A stretch of DNA of 64,000 bases from an uncultured Bacteroidales bacterium (GTDB lineage Bacteria > Bacteroidota > Bacteroidia > Bacteroidales > Paludibacteraceae), in the NCBI GenBank assembly GCA_944322025.1, contig CALUOH010000049.1, forward strand, positions 1 through 64,000. The letters are read 5' to 3'. Positions 8,137 through 63,004 of this stretch are shown here, one piece after another. A model generated the notes under the pieces. The model worked only from the letters and a program-made list of their open reading frames with translations. It did no database searches and was not told the origin of the DNA. Every line of letters starts with the position of its first letter. Position 1 is the stretch's first letter. The translations under genes and the position numbers were made by a program.

Positions 8137-8260
8137 CTAATTAAGGTTAAAAAGTCGTACCCTCGCCTTAGCCGTAAGGTAGCTCAGGGCTGGCCTGAGG
8201 CTTCGGTGGGGCTGGCCTGCTGCTGGCTCGAGAGTACGTGTTTTTAACACTGATTAGCAT
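8137..8260. repeat. Element A, copies A3 and A4 as an inverted pair (complete module)
   Basis: Two heads face each other: CTAATTAAGGTTAAAAAG at 8137 and its inverted counterpart ending TTTTTAACACTGATTAG at 8256. Between them six hexamers sit in unbroken 11-bp register on the plus strand: CTTAGC 8167, GGTAGC 8178, GCTGGC 8189, GCTTCG 8200, GCTGGC 8211, GCTGGC 8222. Position 3 is T in all six. It is the clearest copy of the family. Confidence 0.9.
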
Positions 8261-11988: not shown

Positions 11989-12003
11989 GTATGTTTGTGG
12001 ATG

Positions 12004-12034
12004 CAAAGGTAGGGCATTTAGGCGAATTATGCAA
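12004..12034 (-). promoter_or_regulatory. Promoter for tRNA-His
   Basis: The minus strand has TTG (12034-12032), a 20-bp spacer and TACCTTTG (12011-12004), 16 bp before the tRNA 5' end. The divergent gene at 12072 must use another promoter. Confidence 0.8.
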
Positions 12035-15288: not shown

Positions 15289-15353
15289 GTACAATCTCCA
15301 CACCTCCACCCGTACCGCAAGCCACAGAACGTAACGCCCTGCTTCCTCCACTG

Positions 15354-15416
15354 CTAACTAAGGTTAAAAACACGTACTCTCAACGGAGCTCCTACGGACG
15401 TACTCCGAAGCCTCAC
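15354..15416 (+). repeat. Element A, copy A5
   Basis: Head CTAACTAAGGTTAAAAAC at 15354 continuing to CGTACTCTC (15381), then CGGAGC 15384, CGGACG 15395 and CGAAGC 15406, exactly 11 bp apart. It lies between the nadC terminator and the tgt promoter. Confidence 0.85.
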
Positions 15417-15593
15417 CCCGCCTCTCCGCACTCATCCGGCAGCACTCATGCCCGTAGACCCCCGCCCCGCTCAAACCACCGCCGCATACCCTCACCCCGC
15501 CCGCAGGCACATTTATTCCGTACAGAATATAAAAGAAACTCAATTTTCTCCCCATCGCAGCCGCCACATACCCTCCAGCTCCCCGTTTTTTTG

Positions 15594-21962: not shown

Positions 21963-24398
21963 TTATAGTGATTTAAATATATATTCCAAATCCGCTTCCG
22001 TCTGTACCAGAACTTCGCGCGGCTTGCTGCCCTTGGCCGGACCAACTATCCCCGCCACTTCAAGCTGATCCATGATGCGCCCCGCGCGGTTGAACCCTAT
22101 TTCAAACTTCCGCTGTATATTCGACGTTGAGCCGAGTTGCGCGTTCACCACATAGCGCGCAACCTCTTCAAAATACGGATCACGCTTGCTCATGTCCACG
22201 CTGCTGAGGTCGTTCTCCCCGTCTGGCATGTCCGGCTCCGGCAGTTCAAAGGCCGACGGGTAGCCCTGCTGACTGCCTATGTACTCCACTATCCGCTCCA
22301 CCTCCGGCGTGTCGACAAATGCGCACTGCACGCGCGTCAGGTCGTTGCCCTGTGAGAACAGCAGGTCGCCGCGCCCTATGAGGCGGTCTGCCCCAGGGCC
22401 GTCGAGTATAGTCTTCGAGTCCACTCCGCTCGACACCTTGAACGCCACACGAGCCGGAAAATTGGCCTTGATTATGCCCGTTATGATGTTGACCGACGGA
22501 CGCTGCGTAGCGAGTATCATGTGTATCCCCACCGCACGCGCAAGCTGCGCTATACGCGCTATCGGCAGCTCCACCTCCTTGCCCGCCGTCATTATCAGGT
22601 CGCCGAACTCGTCCACTATCACCACGAAGTAAGGCAGATACCTGTGCCCTTTCAGCGGATTGAGCTTCCGGTTGATGAACTTCTCATTGTACTCCTTTAT
22701 ATTACGCGCATGTGCCAGCTTCAGCAGGTCGTACCGCGCGTCCATCTCCTTGCAGAGCGAATTGAGTGTCTGCACCACCTTCGTGGTATCTGTTATCACT
22801 GGCTCATCCTCCTCTGGCAGCTTCGCCAGAAAATGCTTCTCTATGCCGGAGTATATGTTGAACTCCACTTTCTTCGGGTCCACCAGCACCAGCTTCAGCT
22901 GCGAAGGATGCTTCTTGTACAGTAGCGACGTTATAATCGCGTTCAGCCCCACCGACTTACCCTGTCCCGTCGCGCCCGCCACAAGCAGGTGCGGCATCTT
23001 GCACAGGTCGAACATGAAGACATCGTTCGTGATGGTACGCCCCAAGGCAACAGGCAGGTCGTATGTCGACTCCTGAAACTTCTTCGACGCTATCGTGGCG
23101 TACATGCTCACTATCCGCGGATTGCTGTTCGGCACCTCTATGCCGATAGTCCCCTTGCCCGGCATAGGCGCGATAATACGGATGCCTATCGCCGCGAGGC
23201 TCATCATTATGTCCGCCTCCAGGTTCTTTATCTTGCTTATGCGGATGCCGTCCTCCGGCACTATCTCATACAGCGTTATCGTCGGCCCTATCGTCTCGTA
23301 TATCTTCTTCACCCCTATGCCGAAATTCTTCAGCGTGGTGATTATCTTCTGCTGGTTCGCGCTCTGCTCCTCTTTCGTCACCGACACCGCCGGCTGCGGA
23401 TACTCTTTGAGCAGGTCGAGCGTCGGATACCTGTACCTTGAGAGGTCCAGCGTCGGGTCGTATGGCTCCATATTCTCCTCCACGCTCTCCCCGTCCTCCG
23501 GCACCGTGCTCTCCACATCCGGCGCGCCATCCTCTGCCACCGCCACGAGGTCATCGTCATTCTCCCTGTTCACGGTCTCTATCTGCACCTCACCCCTCTC
23601 AGTCCTCGCCTCATTCTCCGTCTCGAACACTATCTCACTCGTCGTCGCCCTCTCCTCTTCATCCTTCTCGCCGACCCACTCCGGCGGCACAATGTCGTCG
23701 CCTATCTTCACGGCCTTCTCCCTCTCGGCCTCCTTCTCCTCCTTCCGCTCCGCCGCACGGCCGCCCGCATGTATGCCCTTTTTCACCCTCCCCGCCGCGC
23801 TGAACACCCTCCGCAGCGCAGGCACAGTCGCCCTGAAAGCGAACACGGCAAAGACAAGCCCCGTACCAAGTATCACGAACAGCGTCCCCGGCACGCCTAT
23901 ATTCGAAATCAGCCAGTCGCACATATTGACCCCGAACGCCCCCCCGATGCTTATAAACGAGCCGGACATCAGCCCCCCGAAACAGAACTCGAGGAACAGC
24001 GAACCCCACAGCATCAGCACCGCCGGAAACAGAAACGACTTCCACAGCGACATCACCCTTATCCCCATCAGCCTGAACGACAGCACAAACGGGAACAGCA
24101 GCATCAGATACGCCGCCACCCCGAACCCGTCATTCACCACCCTCTCCGCTATGATAGCCCCCTGCACACCAGTCCAGTTCACCACCTGACGCTTCATCTC
24201 CTCCCTCGAAATCGAGTCCGACAGCACTATGCTCTGGTCAGCCGCGCCCGTAAAGAAGAAAGACACCATAGCCAGAAACACATACAGCGTGCACAGCAAC
24301 AGGACAATCCCCATTGCCACACGCGTACGCTCATCTCTAAAAAAAGCCCCTATCTTTGACTTGCCGCCCTTCTTATGGCGGACATCCCTCTTTGCCAT
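21963..24398 (-). CDS. ftsK: DNA translocase FtsK
   Basis: Septal DNA pump that clears chromosome termini and activates dimer resolution. 811 residues. The N terminus has four membrane segments between residues 28 and 180, then an acidic linker to about 300. The motor follows: VTKEEQSANQQKIITTLKNF (about 345, alpha/beta start), Walker A GATGQGKSVGLNAI near 480, VLVDPKKVEFNIY, FVVIVDEFGDLIMTAGKEVE near 590 (Walker B), and the C-terminal winged-helix gamma domain LGSTSNIQRKFEIGFNRAGR near 745. Start ATG at 24398 has GGAAG just upstream. Confidence 0.96.
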   Translation of the reverse strand: MAKRDVRHKKGGKSKIGAFFRDERTRVAMGIVLLLCTLYVFLAMVSFFFTGAADQSIVLSDSISREEMKRQVVNWTGVQGAIIAERVVNDGFGVAAYLMLLFPFVLSFRLMGIRVMSLWKSFLFPAVLMLWGSLFLEFCFGGLMSGSFISIGGAFGVNMCDWLISNIGVPGTLFVILGTGLVFAVFAFRATVPALRRVFSAAGRVKKGIHAGGRAAERKEEKEAEREKAVKIGDDIVPPEWVGEKDEEERATTSEIVFETENEARTERGEVQIETVNRENDDDLVAVAEDGAPDVESTVPEDGESVEENMEPYDPTLDLSRYRYPTLDLLKEYPQPAVSVTKEEQSANQQKIITTLKNFGIGVKKIYETIGPTITLYEIVPEDGIRISKIKNLEADIMMSLAAIGIRIIAPMPGKGTIGIEVPNSNPRIVSMYATIASKKFQESTYDLPVALGRTITNDVFMFDLCKMPHLLVAGATGQGKSVGLNAIITSLLYKKHPSQLKLVLVDPKKVEFNIYSGIEKHFLAKLPEEDEPVITDTTKVVQTLNSLCKEMDARYDLLKLAHARNIKEYNEKFINRKLNPLKGHRYLPYFVVIVDEFGDLIMTAGKEVELPIARIAQLARAVGIHMILATQRPSVNIITGIIKANFPARVAFKVSSGVDSKTILDGPGADRLIGRGDLLFSQGNDLTRVQCAFVDTPEVERIVEYIGSQQGYPSAFELPEPDMPDGENDLSSVDMSKRDPYFEEVARYVVNAQLGSTSNIQRKFEIGFNRAGRIMDQLEVAGIVGPAKGSKPREVLVQTEADLEYIFKSL

Positions 24399-24469
24399 AT
24401 ATCTTCCTTACTACGAAACTCCCACTATATCCATATCTCCCCAGCCCCCATTACCCCGACACCTTCGGC

Positions 24470-24650
24470 ACACGAAGATAGTGCAAGTCGAGAGCAGTGC
24501 TGTATGCAAAACGTCAGTTTTGCAGTACATTATGCAGTACTGTGTCATGACATGTGCCTCGGCACAATGGCAGGATGCGGTACTGCATAATGTAATGACC
24601 GACGGCAGTCCGGCATATAGCACTGCCAAGACGAAGCCTATCTTGTGTGC
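24470..24650. repeat. Family C repeat C1 with a multi-stem insert
   Basis: Outer arms AAGATAG (24475-24481) and CTATCTT (24638-24644) enclose a nested structure. P1 is 24494-24507 with 24613-24626 (GCAGTGCTGTATGC with GCATATAGCACTGC, one G-T). P2 is the hairpin TGCAAAAC-GTCA-GTTTTGCA. P3 is TACATTATGCAGTAC (24526-24540) with GTACTGCATAATGTA (24580-24594), perfect. P4 in the P3 loop is TGTGCC-TC-GGCACA; P5 is CCGAC-GGCA-GTCCGG. The copy at 41.98-42.15 kb keeps P0, P1 and P3 with different bases. Could be a structured RNA or a DNA hairpin element; the strand is undecided. Confidence 0.7.
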
Positions 24651-24657
24651 ATCAGCA

Positions 24658-24824
24658 CACAAAGGTAGTGCAAACCGAGTGCAGAGACAAACAGGAACTT
24701 GTTCCATATTTGGCTATGCCGAGGTGCAGCCTATCTTCGCGATAGCAAAGATAGTGCAAGGTGAGTGCAAAGCCAAAATTGTTTGAGCTTTGCCGAATCG
24801 CTGCCTATCTTCGTGTCAACAAAG
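24658..24824. repeat. Family C repeats C2 and C3 in tandem
   Basis: Two simple members follow C1 directly. C2 (24658-24741) has arms AAGGTAG and CTATCTT, and inner CAGGAACTTGTTCC and GCCGAGGTGCAG. C3 (24746-24815) has arms AAGATAG and CTATCTT, with inner GCCAAAATTGTTTGAGC. Neither has the large insert. They occupy the gap between the 5' end of ftsK and the 3' end of the Sel1 gene. Confidence 0.7.
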
Positions 24825-24924
24825 ATACACCAAATCCCCGTCATGGCAAAATCTCCACACCCCAAATCTTCGCGGACAGTCACACCAATCCCTCGCCCGA
24901 TATAAGCCCTGCAACCCCCTATAT

Positions 24925-24994: not shown

Positions 24995-26371
24995 TCACCT
25001 CCCTATGCGTTCGAGAGCCTCCTTGGCATCAGTAAAACCCTGCTCAGCAGCCAGTCTGTACCACTTAATGGCCTCAGTATAATTCTGCTCCACTCCTTCA
25101 CCATAAAAATAGTGCAAACCAAGATTATACTGCGCACCTGCATCACCCTGTTCGGCAGACTTCCTGAACCACTTGACTGCCTCGGCATAATCACGCACTA
25201 CTCCTTTACCAAAACTATAACACTCACCAAGATTATTCTGTGCCCAAGCATGACCCTGTTCGGCAGACTGTCTGTACCACTTGACAGCCTCAGCATAGTC
25301 CTGTCCTACTCCCATGCCTTTATAATAAAATACACCAAGATTATACTGCGCACCAGCATGACCCTGTTCGGCAGACCGTCTGTACCATTTGGCAGCCTCA
25401 GCATAGTCCTGTCCTACTCCTATGCCATCTACATAACACAAGCCAAGTTTATACTGCGCACTTACATCACCCTGTTCTGCGGACTTCCTGTACCACTTGA
25501 CAGCTTCCGCATAATCCTGCTCTACGCCTTTACCTTTTCCATAACACTCACCAAGATTATACTGCGCACCTGCATGACCTTGTTCGGCAGACTGTCTGCT
25601 CCACTTGACTGCCTCTGCATAGTTCTGCCTTACACCTATACCATAACAATAACTCATACCAAGATAATACTGTGCATCTGCATTCCCCTGCTCGGCAGAC
25701 TGTCCGTACCATTTGGCAGCCTCAGCATAGTCCTGAACTACACCTATGCCTGTATAATAACACATACCAAGATTATACTGTGCGCCTGCATCTCCCTGCT
25801 CGGCAGACTGTCTGTACCACTTGACTGCCTCAGCATAATCCCGCACTACTCCTAGACCAAAACGACAACACTCGCCAAGATAATTCTGCGCACCTGCATC
25901 ACCCTGTTCGGCAGACTTCCTGAACCACTTGACAGCCTCAGCATAGTCCTGCACTACTCCATGACCTGCATAATAACACAAACCAAGAGCTCTCTGCCCA
26001 CATTCATTGCCTTGTTCTGCAGACTTCCTATACCATTTGACCGCCTCGGCATAGTCCTCACTTACACCTTCGCCTTTATAATAATGCACACCAAGATTAT
26101 ACTGCGCTTTGGCATTTCCCTGCTCGGCAGACTTTCTATACCACTTGACAGCCTCAGCATAATCCTGAACTACACCATAATACCAGCCAAGTCCATTCTG
26201 TCCTCCTGCATTGCCTTGTTCTGCGGCTTTTCTGAACCATGTAACAGCCTCAGTATAGTCCTGTTCTACACCATCTCCACTAACATAACACAAACCAAGT
26301 TCATACTGTGCCGCAGCATCACCCTGCTCGGCGGACTGCCTAAGCCTATCAATTTCCTCTTTTGTTTTCAT
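24995..26371 (-). CDS. Sel1-like repeat protein
   Basis: 458 residues from the ATG at 26371, chosen because GGAG lies 6 bp upstream and the earlier ATG (26467) adds a non-homologous stretch lying inside the predicted leader. The whole protein is twelve Sel1-like repeats of 36 residues (pattern AEQGxAxAQYNLGxxYYxGxG...QDYAEAVKWYRxS) plus a short cap, FTDAKEALERIGR. Repeat 2 is 4 residues short. No signal peptide or membrane segment is seen, so it is probably cytoplasmic. Sel1 proteins are protein-binding scaffolds; no partner can be inferred. DNA-level identity between repeats is high, suggesting recent duplication. Confidence 0.9.
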   Translation of the reverse strand: MKTKEEIDRLRQSAEQGDAAAQYELGLCYVSGDGVEQDYTEAVTWFRKAAEQGNAGGQNGLGWYYGVVQDYAEAVKWYRKSAEQGNAKAQYNLGVHYYKGEGVSEDYAEAVKWYRKSAEQGNECGQRALGLCYYAGHGVVQDYAEAVKWFRKSAEQGDAGAQNYLGECCRFGLGVVRDYAEAVKWYRQSAEQGDAGAQYNLGMCYYTGIGVVQDYAEAAKWYGQSAEQGNADAQYYLGMSYCYGIGVRQNYAEAVKWSRQSAEQGHAGAQYNLGECYGKGKGVEQDYAEAVKWYRKSAEQGDVSAQYKLGLCYVDGIGVGQDYAEAAKWYRRSAEQGHAGAQYNLGVFYYKGMGVGQDYAEAVKWYRQSAEQGHAWAQNNLGECYSFGKGVVRDYAEAVKWFRKSAEQGDAGAQYNLGLHYFYGEGVEQNYTEAIKWYRLAAEQGFTDAKEALERIGR

Positions 26372-26494
26372 ATCTCCATGCAATTTATAAATATCTGAAT
26401 ATACTACACCTCTACATCGTCCTGTCCACGCCCAATAGCCTATTGGACTATATGCACACAAAAACATGGTGCACAGTAATGCCCCTACATCTCA

Positions 26495-26540: not shown

Positions 26541-26725
26541 ACTGCAAACCAAAGTTAAAAACACGTACTCTCGTGCCAACTCTCAGCCAGCCCCTCCCTA
26601 CCCGTAAGCCATCCCTTCCCGTCTCTCCCCCTGCCCCGCTCCCTTTCCGCCCCAACCCCACTGCGTTAATCGAGGTTAAAAAGACGTACTCTCGTGCCGT
26701 CTCCTCCGAACATCCTCCCTGTCCC
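26541..26725 (+). repeat. Element A, copies A6 and A7 in tandem
   Basis: Heads at 26541-26573 and 26661-26694. After A6, 11-bp-spaced hexamers are GCCAAC 26575, GCCAGC 26586, CCTACC 26597, GCCATC 26608 and CCGTCT 26619. After A7 they are GCCGTC 26696, CGAACA 26707 and CCTGTC 26718. Lies between the Sel1 promoter and the BspA terminator. Confidence 0.85.
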
Positions 26726-26756
26726 CTCGCTTCTCCCTCCATCCCCCGGCTCATAC

Positions 26757-31664: not shown

Positions 31665-31750
31665 AATCTAAATCAAGGTTAAAAACACGTACTCTCGAGC
31701 CAGCAGCAGGCCAGCCCCACCGAACCCCCTCCCTATCCTCACCCCACCCT
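31665..31750 (+). repeat. Element A, copy A8
   Basis: Head AATCAAGGTTAAAAACACG ending TACTCTCG at 31698. Bricks every 11 bp: GCCAGC 31700, GCCAGC 31711, CGAACC 31722, CCTATC 31733, CCACCC 31744. The complementary strand has closely spaced G runs with quadruplex potential. Nearly identical to copy A9 at 33.4 kb. Confidence 0.87.
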
Positions 31751-33433: not shown

Positions 33434-33600
33434 CGGTTAATCAAGGTTAAAAATACGTACTCTCGAGCCAGCTGCAGGCCAGCCCCACCGAACCCCCTCC
33501 CTATCCTCACCCCACCCCTCAGCCTCCTGAATGCTAATTGAGGTTAAAAAATCGTACTCTCGACGGAACACCGACGGACACCCTACGGAGCATCTCCCCA
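33434..33600 (+). repeat. Element A, copies A9 and A10 in tandem
   Basis: Heads at 33434-33465 and 33531-33562, 97 bp apart. Six bricks fill the space after A9 at 33467, 33478, 33489, 33500, 33511 and 33522 (GCCAGC, GCCAGC, CGAACC, CCTATC, CCCACC, GCCTCC). After A10 come CGGAAC 33564, CGGACA 33575 and CGGAGC 33586. A textbook head-plus-six-brick module. Confidence 0.88.
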
Positions 33601-33662
33601 ACCCTTCCCCCGCACACACATAAAAATCTCACCCGCCTCTTGCCGCACTCGCCGCAATTCAC

Positions 33663-41980: not shown

Positions 41981-42152
41981 CAAAGACAGTGAAAATCGAG
42001 AGCAGTACATATGATGCAAAACTGGTGTTTTGCATTGCATTCTATTGTACAGCAGCATGACATGTGCCTTGGCACAATGGCAGGATACTGTACAATAGAA
42101 TGCGATACCGACGGCAGTCCGGCATATGTACTGCCGAGATGCATCCTGTCTT
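41981..42152. repeat. Family C repeat C4 with a multi-stem insert
   Basis: Outer arms AAGACAG (41983-41989) and CTGTCTT (42146-42152). P1 GCAGTACATATG (42002-42013) pairs perfectly with CATATGTACTGC (42123-42134). P2 is ATGCAAAAC-TGGT-GTTTTGCAT. P3 GCATTCTATTGTACAG (42037-42052) pairs perfectly with CTGTACAATAGAATGC (42088-42103). The P3 loop and P5 are almost the same as in C1 (GACATGTGCC, GGCACAATGGCAGGAT, ACCGACGGCAGTCCGGCATA), but P0, P1 and P3 differ in sequence while keeping pairing. Between divergent rex and the SUI1 gene. Confidence 0.75.
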
Positions 42153-42205
42153 GTACCAGCAGGTACAAAGATAGAAAAATTATTCCGTCTGCTCAATTAT
42201 TTCAC

Positions 42206-42690: not shown

Positions 42691-42815
42691 GCCACCTCCT
42701 CGCTACCTTCTCCCTAACCTCCCGCTACCCTCAACCAAGCGGTTCGCTCTTCTTGTTCAATCTTCTGTCAATACTCTTCAAATCCCGCCACTCATCTCGC
42801 CGTTACTCTTTTTAA
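42691..42815. repeat. 11-bp brick array B3
   Basis: Five hexamers every 11 bp: GCCACC 42691, GCTACC 42702, CCTAAC 42713, GCTACC 42724, CCAAGC 42735. Flank resembles B1 (50.8 kb) and B2 (54.1 kb), including CCCTCAACCAAGC and CCGTTACTCTTTT, but the middle has diverged and it has one extra brick. Fills the tail-to-tail gap between the SUI1 gene and the methyltransferase. Confidence 0.75.
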
Positions 42816-44210: not shown

Positions 44211-44380
44211 TGTAAATTAAGGTTAAAAAGACGTACTCTCGACGAAGCAGCACCGAAGCCCCTCCGAAGCCCCACCCTATCCTCAAGCCACCCCCTCCCA
44301 ACCCCAAATGCAAATCAAGGTTAAAAACACGTACTCTCGACGGAACGGCTACGGACACCCTACGGAGCATCTCCCAGCCC
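44211..44380 (+). repeat. Element A, copies A11 and A12 in tandem
   Basis: Heads at 44211-44241 and 44308-44339, 98 bp apart. Six bricks lie between: CGAAGC 44243, CGAAGC 44254, CGAAGC 44265, CCTATC 44276, GCCACC 44287, CCAACC 44298. After A12 come CGGAAC 44341, CGGACA 44352, CGGAGC 44363 and CCAGCC 44374. Lies between the methyltransferase 5' end and the CLC promoter. Confidence 0.88.
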
Positions 44381-44452
44381 TCTCCCCCTCCCTGCCGCCC
44401 TCTCACGCGCACAAAACCGTACAAAACAGCCACACAACCCGAATTTTATCCT

Positions 44453-50571: not shown

Positions 50572-50815
50572 TCCCGAACTCCTTATTTCACAAATGCCGT
50601 TCCCCGTGCCAATGCCCTGACATGCACATTCCCGTTGCACATACATGCCAACCCTGTTCTCGTCGGCAGCACTCCGCCATACTCCCCGCCCGCAGGCACA
50701 CTACTTCCTCTCCACTCACGTTATTCACAATACACATCACATTTCAAACCCCAATTCTCACCGGTCGGTCTTGTCATAACATAAACCACTGGTCATCAGA
50801 CCATTTCTCCTACAT
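50572..50815. other. Gap inside the efflux operon
   Basis: No gene and no strong promoter or terminator seen between the first ATPase and array B1. The HlyD-ATPase gap (428 bp) contrasts with 4-bp overlaps and short gaps elsewhere in the operon. Confidence 0.5.
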
Positions 50816-50915
50816 GCAGCTACCTCGCCGCTATCCTCTCCCTACCCTCAACCAAGCAAGTCGGTATTCTTGTGCATTTATTCGCCATATTGTTTCAAAT
50901 CTTACACCCCATCGT
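50816..50915. repeat. 11-bp brick array B1
   Basis: Bricks GCTACC 50819, GCTATC 50830, CCTACC 50841 and CCAAGC 50852, each 11 bp apart, followed by a conserved tail (CGGTATTCTTGTGCATTTAT, then TTCGCCATATTGTTTCAAAT, then CTTACACCCCATCGT). The tail matches B2 at 54.17-54.23 kb almost base for base. Sits inside the efflux operon. Confidence 0.82.
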
Positions 50916-50999
50916 CCCCATGCCTGTTTTACACATCGCCCGCCATTCGGGGCAGCACACGTTCAGCTCTCCGCCGATACCGCGCAGGCTATGCTCCCC

Positions 51000-53898: not shown

Positions 53899-53947
53899 CT
53901 AACAATTTTGTTAGCACAAAGGTATGGCATATTTCCGTGCCAACAAA
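53899..53947 (-). promoter_or_regulatory. Promoter and probable TetR operator
   Basis: The minus strand has TTTG (53947-53944), 19 bp, TACCTTTG (53924-53917). Immediately downstream, over the predicted +1, lies CTAACAA-TT-TTGTTAG (53899-53914), two perfect 7-bp half sites. A direct repeat AACAATTTTGT overlaps it. The layout predicts steric repression by the TetR protein. Confidence 0.75.
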
Positions 53948-54127
53948 ATAGTTATAACGTTTTTTATGGATTTTCTTTCCCTTTTCCCTGAAATGCCGCC
54001 CGATTTCATCCACATGACCTTCCACACCAAAACTCCTTAAAACAACACCCTCACCTCAAACGCCCACTCACACCGCCTCCTGTTCCGCACTCATAACCAC
54101 CTGTACCGCAAGGCGTTTCCTTACTTC

Positions 54128-54240
54128 CAGCCACCTCCCCGCTACCCTCTCCCTACCCTCAACCAAGCAAGTCGGTATTATTGCGCCTTTATTCGCCAAA
54201 TTGTTTCAAATCTTACACCCCATCGTGCCGTTACTCTTTT
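54128..54240. repeat. 11-bp brick array B2
   Basis: Bricks GCCACC 54130, GCTACC 54141, CCTACC 54152, CCAAGC 54163, then the conserved tail CGGTATTATTGCG, TTTATTCGCCAAATTG and TTTCAAATCTTACACC. The minus strand of 54137-54158 has four G runs (GGG TA GGG AGA GGG TAGC GGGG), a quadruplex motif. The rest of 53948-54336 is gene-free. Confidence 0.82.
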
Positions 54241-54336
54241 CACCCACTCCCCTCCCCCTGCACCGCATGACGAATTAAAGAAGTAAAGTATGATGGCAAC
54301 AACGCGGCAGATTGCCCGACCCTACACGCCCCCGGC

Positions 54337-60526: not shown

Positions 60527-60600
60527 ATGCAAACTAAGGTTAAAAACACGTACTCTCGAGCCAACCGTCAGCCATCCCCTCCGAAGCCCCTCCCCACTCC
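60527..60600 (+). repeat. Element A, copy A13
   Basis: Head AACTAAGGTTAAAAACACG ending TACTCTCG at 60558, then GCCAAC 60560, GCCATC 60571, CGAAGC 60582, each 11 bp apart. Between the nrdJ upstream region and the helicase terminator. Confidence 0.87.
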
Positions 60601-60662
60601 AACCTTCACAACGGCATATCTCATCACACGCTCCGCCCGCCCTCCTCCGCTCCACGTCAAAC

Positions 60663-62910: not shown

Positions 62911-62975
62911 TCATGTTAATCAAGGTTAAAAACACGTACTCTCGCGCCAATTCTCAGGCAGCTTTCCAATATCCT
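62911..62975 (+). repeat. Element A, copy A14
   Basis: Head GTTAATCAAGGTTAAAAACA ending CGTACTCTCG at 62944, then GCCAAT 62946, GGCAGC 62957 and a decayed third brick (62968). Between the helicase promoter and the rho terminator. Confidence 0.82.
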
Positions 62976-63004
62976 CCCCCCCCTGCCCACCATTCCACCG
63001 CACG

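Follow-up and report, generated by a model that had tools for sequence, protein, structure and literature searches.

A dispersed, foldable repeat at promoters of Bacteroidales that may be a mobile DNA element

A structured insert in the ftsK promoter of an uncultured Bacteroidales bacterium belongs to a repeat that is dispersed at promoters, lies there in one orientation and has stems kept by compensatory base change. We see about an even chance that this repeat is a non-autonomous mobile DNA element, present in Bacteroidales in high copy, one strand of which acts as folded single-stranded DNA.

The insert is part of a three-unit array

A first-pass annotation of the window (the whole stretch of DNA analysed here, 64,000 nt) had placed a five-stem insert at 24470-24650. 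The insert is real, but these coordinates cut through a larger array (24475-24827) in the ftsK promoter. Three units follow one another head to tail in this array, beginning with the insert, here called C1. A second long unit, C4, adjoins a rex-like gene. The features of both loci are given below, with evidence in brackets.

21966-24398, minus strand: ftsK, whose promoter bears the C1 array (Pfam FtsK_SpoIIIE, FtsK_alpha, FtsK_gamma, FtsK_4TM)
24475-24644, plus strand: C1 long unit (covariance model R1, covariation)
24490-24627, plus strand: apical four-way-junction module of C1, with P1 closing the P2 hairpin, the P3/P4 arm and the P5 hairpin
24645-24661, plus strand: hairpin spacer GTGTGC-ATCA-GCACAC between units
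24662-24737, plus strand: second unit, a short form of 76 nt with the same chassis as C1
24748-24811, plus strand: third unit, a short form of 64 nt with the same chassis as C1
24820-24827, minus strand: distal, probably native -7 box TATCTTTG of the ftsK promoter (consensus, PMC7366714)
41225-41896, minus strand: rex-like redox-sensing repressor gene adjoining C4 (Pfam Put_DNA-bind_N and CoA_binding)
41983-42152, plus strand: C4 long unit (covariance model R1, 119.5 bits over 41998-42135)
42166-42173, minus strand: distal, probably native -7 box TATCTTTG of the rex promoter

C1 and C4 fold alike. From the ends inward, P0 (AAGATAG/CTATCTT in C1; AAGACAG at 41983 and CTGTCTT at 42152 in C4) is followed by a helix that contains tandem G.A pairs (CGAG/CGAG) as well as a bulged base, and then by P1, which leads into a four-way junction made of hairpin P2, a long arm P3 under a P4 cap, and hairpin P5. 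Model R1 scored 150 bits on C1 over 24490-24627. The two units had been described as having loops in common and stems that still pair despite base changes, and we found the motifs and arms as claimed, except that one of the supposed loops, GTGCC..GGCAC, is itself a small stem, namely P4 (TGTGC-CTYG-GCACA). The further statement that P3 consists of unrelated bases in the two copies proved wrong: C1 shares 76% identity with C4 over 89 nt, so that their stems have diverged and are not unrelated.

Short and long units, which are multi-branched and range from 60 to 250 nt, are built on a common chassis, to which C1 and C4 add the long four-way-junction apical module. The chassis runs AAGATAG, internal loop TGAAA, a three-base stem, GAG, a bulge and GC, and, in its second half, TGC, CGA, the three-base stem, internal loop GCATC and CTATCTT. 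Its ends are terminal inverted repeats such as define a MITE, with every position of AAGATAG/CTATCTT paired in at least 48 of 50 units. The triplet beside the GA pairs occurs in seven paired forms (GGT/ACC, ATC/GAT, GTC/GAC, GGC/GCC, ACC/GGT, AGT/ACT and GCC/GGC) and is fully paired in 41 of the 50 units, each of its three positions pairing far more often than in shuffles. Some units also bear a side module (CAATCTG..CAGATTG) of similar plan.

Elsewhere in the window, at 133-158, 11994-12019 and 53907-53932, ordinary-looking -7 boxes are directly followed by a small TTTG/CAAA hairpin (e.g. CCTACCTTTGCACTCGCAAA). Hairpins of this type at -7 boxes are a possible origin of the spacers in the arrays.

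Stems are kept by compensatory change

Instead of the two copies first reported, the source genome holds at least 14 long units, 13 of which we aligned by sequence only and examined for covariation. Standard pairs made up 93.4% of the pair cells, and double-sided change was seen in 24 of 51 pairs, compared with 9.8 in shuffles (0 of 500 shuffles). The covariation score was 0.301 as against 0.139 after shuffling (again 0 of 500), and sliding the partner columns by 1-3 positions destroyed the pairing. The stems of C1 and C4 are kept by compensatory change. The original proposal that the structure is preserved as structure is thereby well supported, and the additional copies, in which a loss of such pairing would have spoken against it, retain compensatory pairing.

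Units lie in one orientation at -7 boxes

Units are situated between a probably native TAnnTTTG -7 box and the gene, and carry a TATCTTTG of their own at the unit end; TAnnTTTG is the -7 consensus of Bacteroides promoters (PMC7366714). The left end read CAAAGATA in 66 of 78 cases, which on the gene strand is TATCTTTG; that of C1 deviates (TATCTTCG). Beyond intact right ends, at a distance of up to ~25 nt, there is usually a second -7 box, CAAAGNTA, whose middle bases vary. Our 35-locus survey required this motif, and a separate listing compiled without the requirement shows the same right-end pattern.

A TTG lies 19 nt upstream of the distal -7 box in the ftsK promoter (24847-24849) and 20 nt upstream in the rex promoter (42194-42196). 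Upstream of the unit's own -7 box, a TTG at 19-20 nt, the position of a possible -33 element, was present in 43 of 66 units, a count that does not represent independent events because the units are homologous. Long forms have the TTG at 25-26 nt and none at 19-20. Units may have promoter activity.

As for orientation, we surveyed 35 loci of the source genome (G000) and of a genome (G006) that we take to be Candidatus Aphodosoma intestinipullorum, the sister of the source species. In 29 loci, the longest ORF to the left begins on the side of the element. Four of the other six agree in orientation, namely C4, where a 94% identical orthologue of the rex-like gene in G006 supports the strand, and three loci whose proteins, recognised by eye, we take to be NUDIX-like, thioredoxin-like and MutS; one locus (L040) is a true exception. 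Another copy sits at a gene that, also by eye, is presumably hflX. No clear target-site duplication was seen at the units; CAAAG flanks both sides, which is compatible with a 5-bp duplication and indistinguishable from an element-borne -7 box.

Copy number is patchy and orthologous promoters differ

The source genome has ~56 left ends (at most one mismatch) and its sister species 66 copies, while the seven other congeners among the nine species of the genus have 0-2. Copy-rich genomes also occur elsewhere in the family (G063, G088 and G089) and in other families (G057 and G100). A species of the genus of G088 has 2 copies; in two species of a genus other than that of G000, the counts are 77 versus 2. 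Among 61 genomes, the long form was found in G000 and G006 only. Short forms are present in a plasmid record of Phocaeicola massiliensis and in unannotated human gut 'phage' contigs, and the chassis is therefore widespread. Scanning viral contigs with the short-form pattern gave no match. The sole hit outside Bacteroidales, in a Verrucomicrobiae MAG (L115), was rejected as a chance match inside a coding region, which we take to be that of an aldo/keto reductase.

At four promoters, units are present in G000 as well as in G006. At one of them, a short unit in G000 and a long unit in G006 lie between the same flanks. At another, both genomes have long units. These are 73% identical and show 9 compensatory, 3 one-sided and 8 broken pairs; one of the two contains a 74-nt side module that is exactly missing from the other. 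The ftsK promoter has three units in G000, two different short units plus a remnant in G006, and a single TAACTTTG in G002, G007 and G008. Empty sites had been suggested as a check on the insert. No clean one with both flanks alignable was found: the ftsK promoters with a single TAACTTTG do not qualify, because upstream flanks outside the G000/G006 pair do not align. The hflX promoter of G006 was also discarded as an empty site, as it holds a hairpin and a possible remnant. The orthologous arrays would also fit a feature that is old, has been inherited vertically and is remodelled where it stands.

The location of the units raises the alternative that they are a domesticated promoter cassette, by which the host tunes or protects the transcription of core genes. 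They are indeed found at core genes, among them ftsK, rex and hflX, and they bring a -7 box, joined in many short forms by a TTG at 19-20 nt. However, the adjoining genes look functionally unrelated, other sister species do without units, and the long forms are devoid of a -33-like TTG, making domestication distinctly improbable.

The strand that folds better is the template strand

On the strand with AAGATAG at its 5' end, G.T cells outnumbered A.C cells by 31:6 in the sequence-only alignment and by 50:14 in both genomes (G000 and G006), an excess that reaches significance when cells are counted but not when columns are (22 vs 14, p = 0.24). Among units whose two strands differ in stability, the same strand has the stabler fold in 32 of 35 short and 29 of 36 long ones, to which the tandem G.A pairs contribute; with DNA energies it is the more stable one in 22 of 24 long units. 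Since the copies are related, these strand counts are supports and not tests, and the stability of G.T over A.C does not separate DNA from RNA. For the adjacent gene, the best-folding strand serves as template; being opposite to that gene, it is not its leader. The left flank (60 bases, 45 first units) contains little information except NCA beside the end, and no conserved promoter. With the favoured strand being the template and no promoter visible for an RNA of that strand, the acting form is more likely DNA than RNA, although the evidence falls short of proof.

A conserved fold with covariation, as found here, is what a structured noncoding RNA would display, and the units could encode such an RNA (an sRNA or a cis-regulatory RNA) at promoters, the fold being kept because the transcript works. 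The CTYG tetraloops, the tandem GA pairs, the conserved internal loops TGAAA and GCATC, and the folding strand bias would all suit this explanation. What makes it unlikely, in our view, is that the strand with the better fold runs opposite to the neighbouring gene, that the 45 first units have no conserved promoter upstream of the left end, that close congeners lack the units and that orthologous promoters carry different unit types, together with the results from Rfam. A search of 4227 Rfam families at gathering thresholds detected only tRNA and RNase P in the window, and at E<=1 the region 24400-24900 yielded sub-threshold matches only, nearly all to microRNA-type hairpins and none credible; thus, the known Rfam family that the first-pass annotation had allowed for did not turn up. 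Of the two options it had offered, a noncoding RNA or a hairpin mobile element, the latter fits better. It had not noted that the units sit at promoters and in tandem, that short forms have the same chassis, or that the distribution is patchy.

Covariation might also arise from mutation itself, if the arms of quasi-palindromes were recopied by replication template switching and the products spread by tandem duplication and gene conversion. The side module of one locus (L010, between 1415 and 1656) is a perfect palindrome that is imperfect in other copies, as if one arm had been recopied. Yet unpaired features survive (the tandem GA, the bulged base, the 5x5 internal loop, and the CTYG and RNCA loops), recopying is strand-neutral whereas G.T exceeds A.C, and the fixed orientation at -7 boxes is left unexplained. 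We consider this origin of the covariation quite unlikely.

A possible mode of movement, and searches for the mover

Under the favoured reading of a non-autonomous mobile element, the element would be moved in trans by an enzyme acting on one strand folded as single-stranded DNA, and would insert in one orientation on the gene side of a TAnnTTTG -7 box. The orientation would be fixed because this target is asymmetric. By supplying its own TATCTTTG at the gene-proximal end, the unit would leave the gene with a -7 box and offer the next target, so that the promoter would stay open to repeat hits and tandem units would accumulate with hairpins between them. Apical and side modules would be swapped inside the fixed chassis.

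One known group that could account for such movement is the REP/BIME elements mobilised by a Y1 (RAYT) transposase, which likewise form intergenic hairpins in tandem groups with a strand preference (PMC3733652, PMC6006769). However, the Y1 domain (PF01797) is absent from six of the seven high-copy genomes (G000, G006, G063, G089, G057 and G100, of which G057 and G100 are 99% complete); the one match among these seven was in G088, and the domain is present in several copy-poor relatives. A RAYT-driven REP/BIME system is largely refuted by this co-occurrence and is extremely improbable. A reverse transcriptase was rejected as the mover, being missing from most carrier genomes: RVT_1 had no match in five of the seven (G000, G063, G088, G089 and G100) and is present in G006 and G057. 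A scan of the fetched loci for copies of the element that carry a gene gave, at the mismatch level used, nothing but noise.

Tentatively, and with considerable doubt, we propose that the mover of the folded single strand may be neither Y1 nor a reverse transcriptase, and that it may recognise the Bacteroidetes -7 element, perhaps as opened by RNA polymerase, thus always landing at a promoter and rebuilding it. If right, gut Bacteroidales must hold an enzyme that handles folded DNA at promoters, which should be findable by gene-content comparison given the patchy distribution within a genus. They would also carry a widespread repeat through which core genes gain promoter parts that differ from species to species, and orthologous promoters with different units would serve as natural experiments on its effect on expression.

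Other repeats in the window

A second, unrelated dispersed repeat with the core TTAAAAACACGTACTCTCG occurs on both strands, often in pairs ~100 nt apart, and is also found in G006. Its positions in the window are:

2138-2304, 8139-8256, 15332-15418, 26547-26746, 31671-31749: TTAAAAACACGTACTCTCG repeat
33439-33614, 44215-44391, 60532-60610, 62918-62996: TTAAAAACACGTACTCTCG repeat, further copies

Another repeat of ~134 nt lies at 50811-50944, 54122-54255 and 42702-42759 (84% identity between two copies), and a gene at 24998-26467 encodes at least 12 Sel1 repeats, which show up in the DNA as a 108-nt tandem repeat.

Comparison with known systems

A literature search for the repeat's own sequence retrieved no paper from the library consulted, and no matching MITE description was found; the repeat is apparently undescribed so far. 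Like REP/BIME elements with their RAYTs, it consists of short intergenic repeats that can fold as single strands, occur in tandem groups and high copy, and are patchy between relatives. It differs from them in its multi-branched units of 60-250 nt at promoters and in the absence of the Y1 transposase from most carriers, and by eye no GTAG/CGTC tag was seen at the unit ends, which read AAGATAGTG/CTATCTT.

Correia elements, MITEs of Neisseria, are small non-coding dispersed repeats located upstream of genes and containing promoter parts (PMC10969869). Compared by description, they have these traits in common with the present units, which are set apart by -7-box-tied insertion in one orientation and by a modular multi-branch fold with covariation. 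In Porphyromonas gingivalis, BrickBuilt has terminal repeats GAGACCTTCGCA and a 23-nt minisatellite (PMC4596501). It and other MITEs of that species resemble our repeat in being intergenic, in Bacteroidales and of reported promoter activity; BrickBuilt was rejected as a match, its ends differing from AAGATAG/CTATCTT.

The BOX elements of Streptococcus pneumoniae are modular and foldable, with conserved ends and exchangeable inner parts. By description, the likeness lies in the modular foldable units, while BOX belongs to another phylum and the present units stand head-to-tail at -7 boxes. Integron attC sites are recombination sites recognised as folded single strands, conserved in shape and variable in their stems. 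The resemblance to attC is one of working; paired R boxes (RYYYAAC/GTTRRRY) were found in 0 of 59 units, and there are no cassette genes. Taken together, the repeat works like known small mobile hairpins, and its promoter targeting together with a conserved multi-branch fold sets it apart from REP/RAYT and attC.
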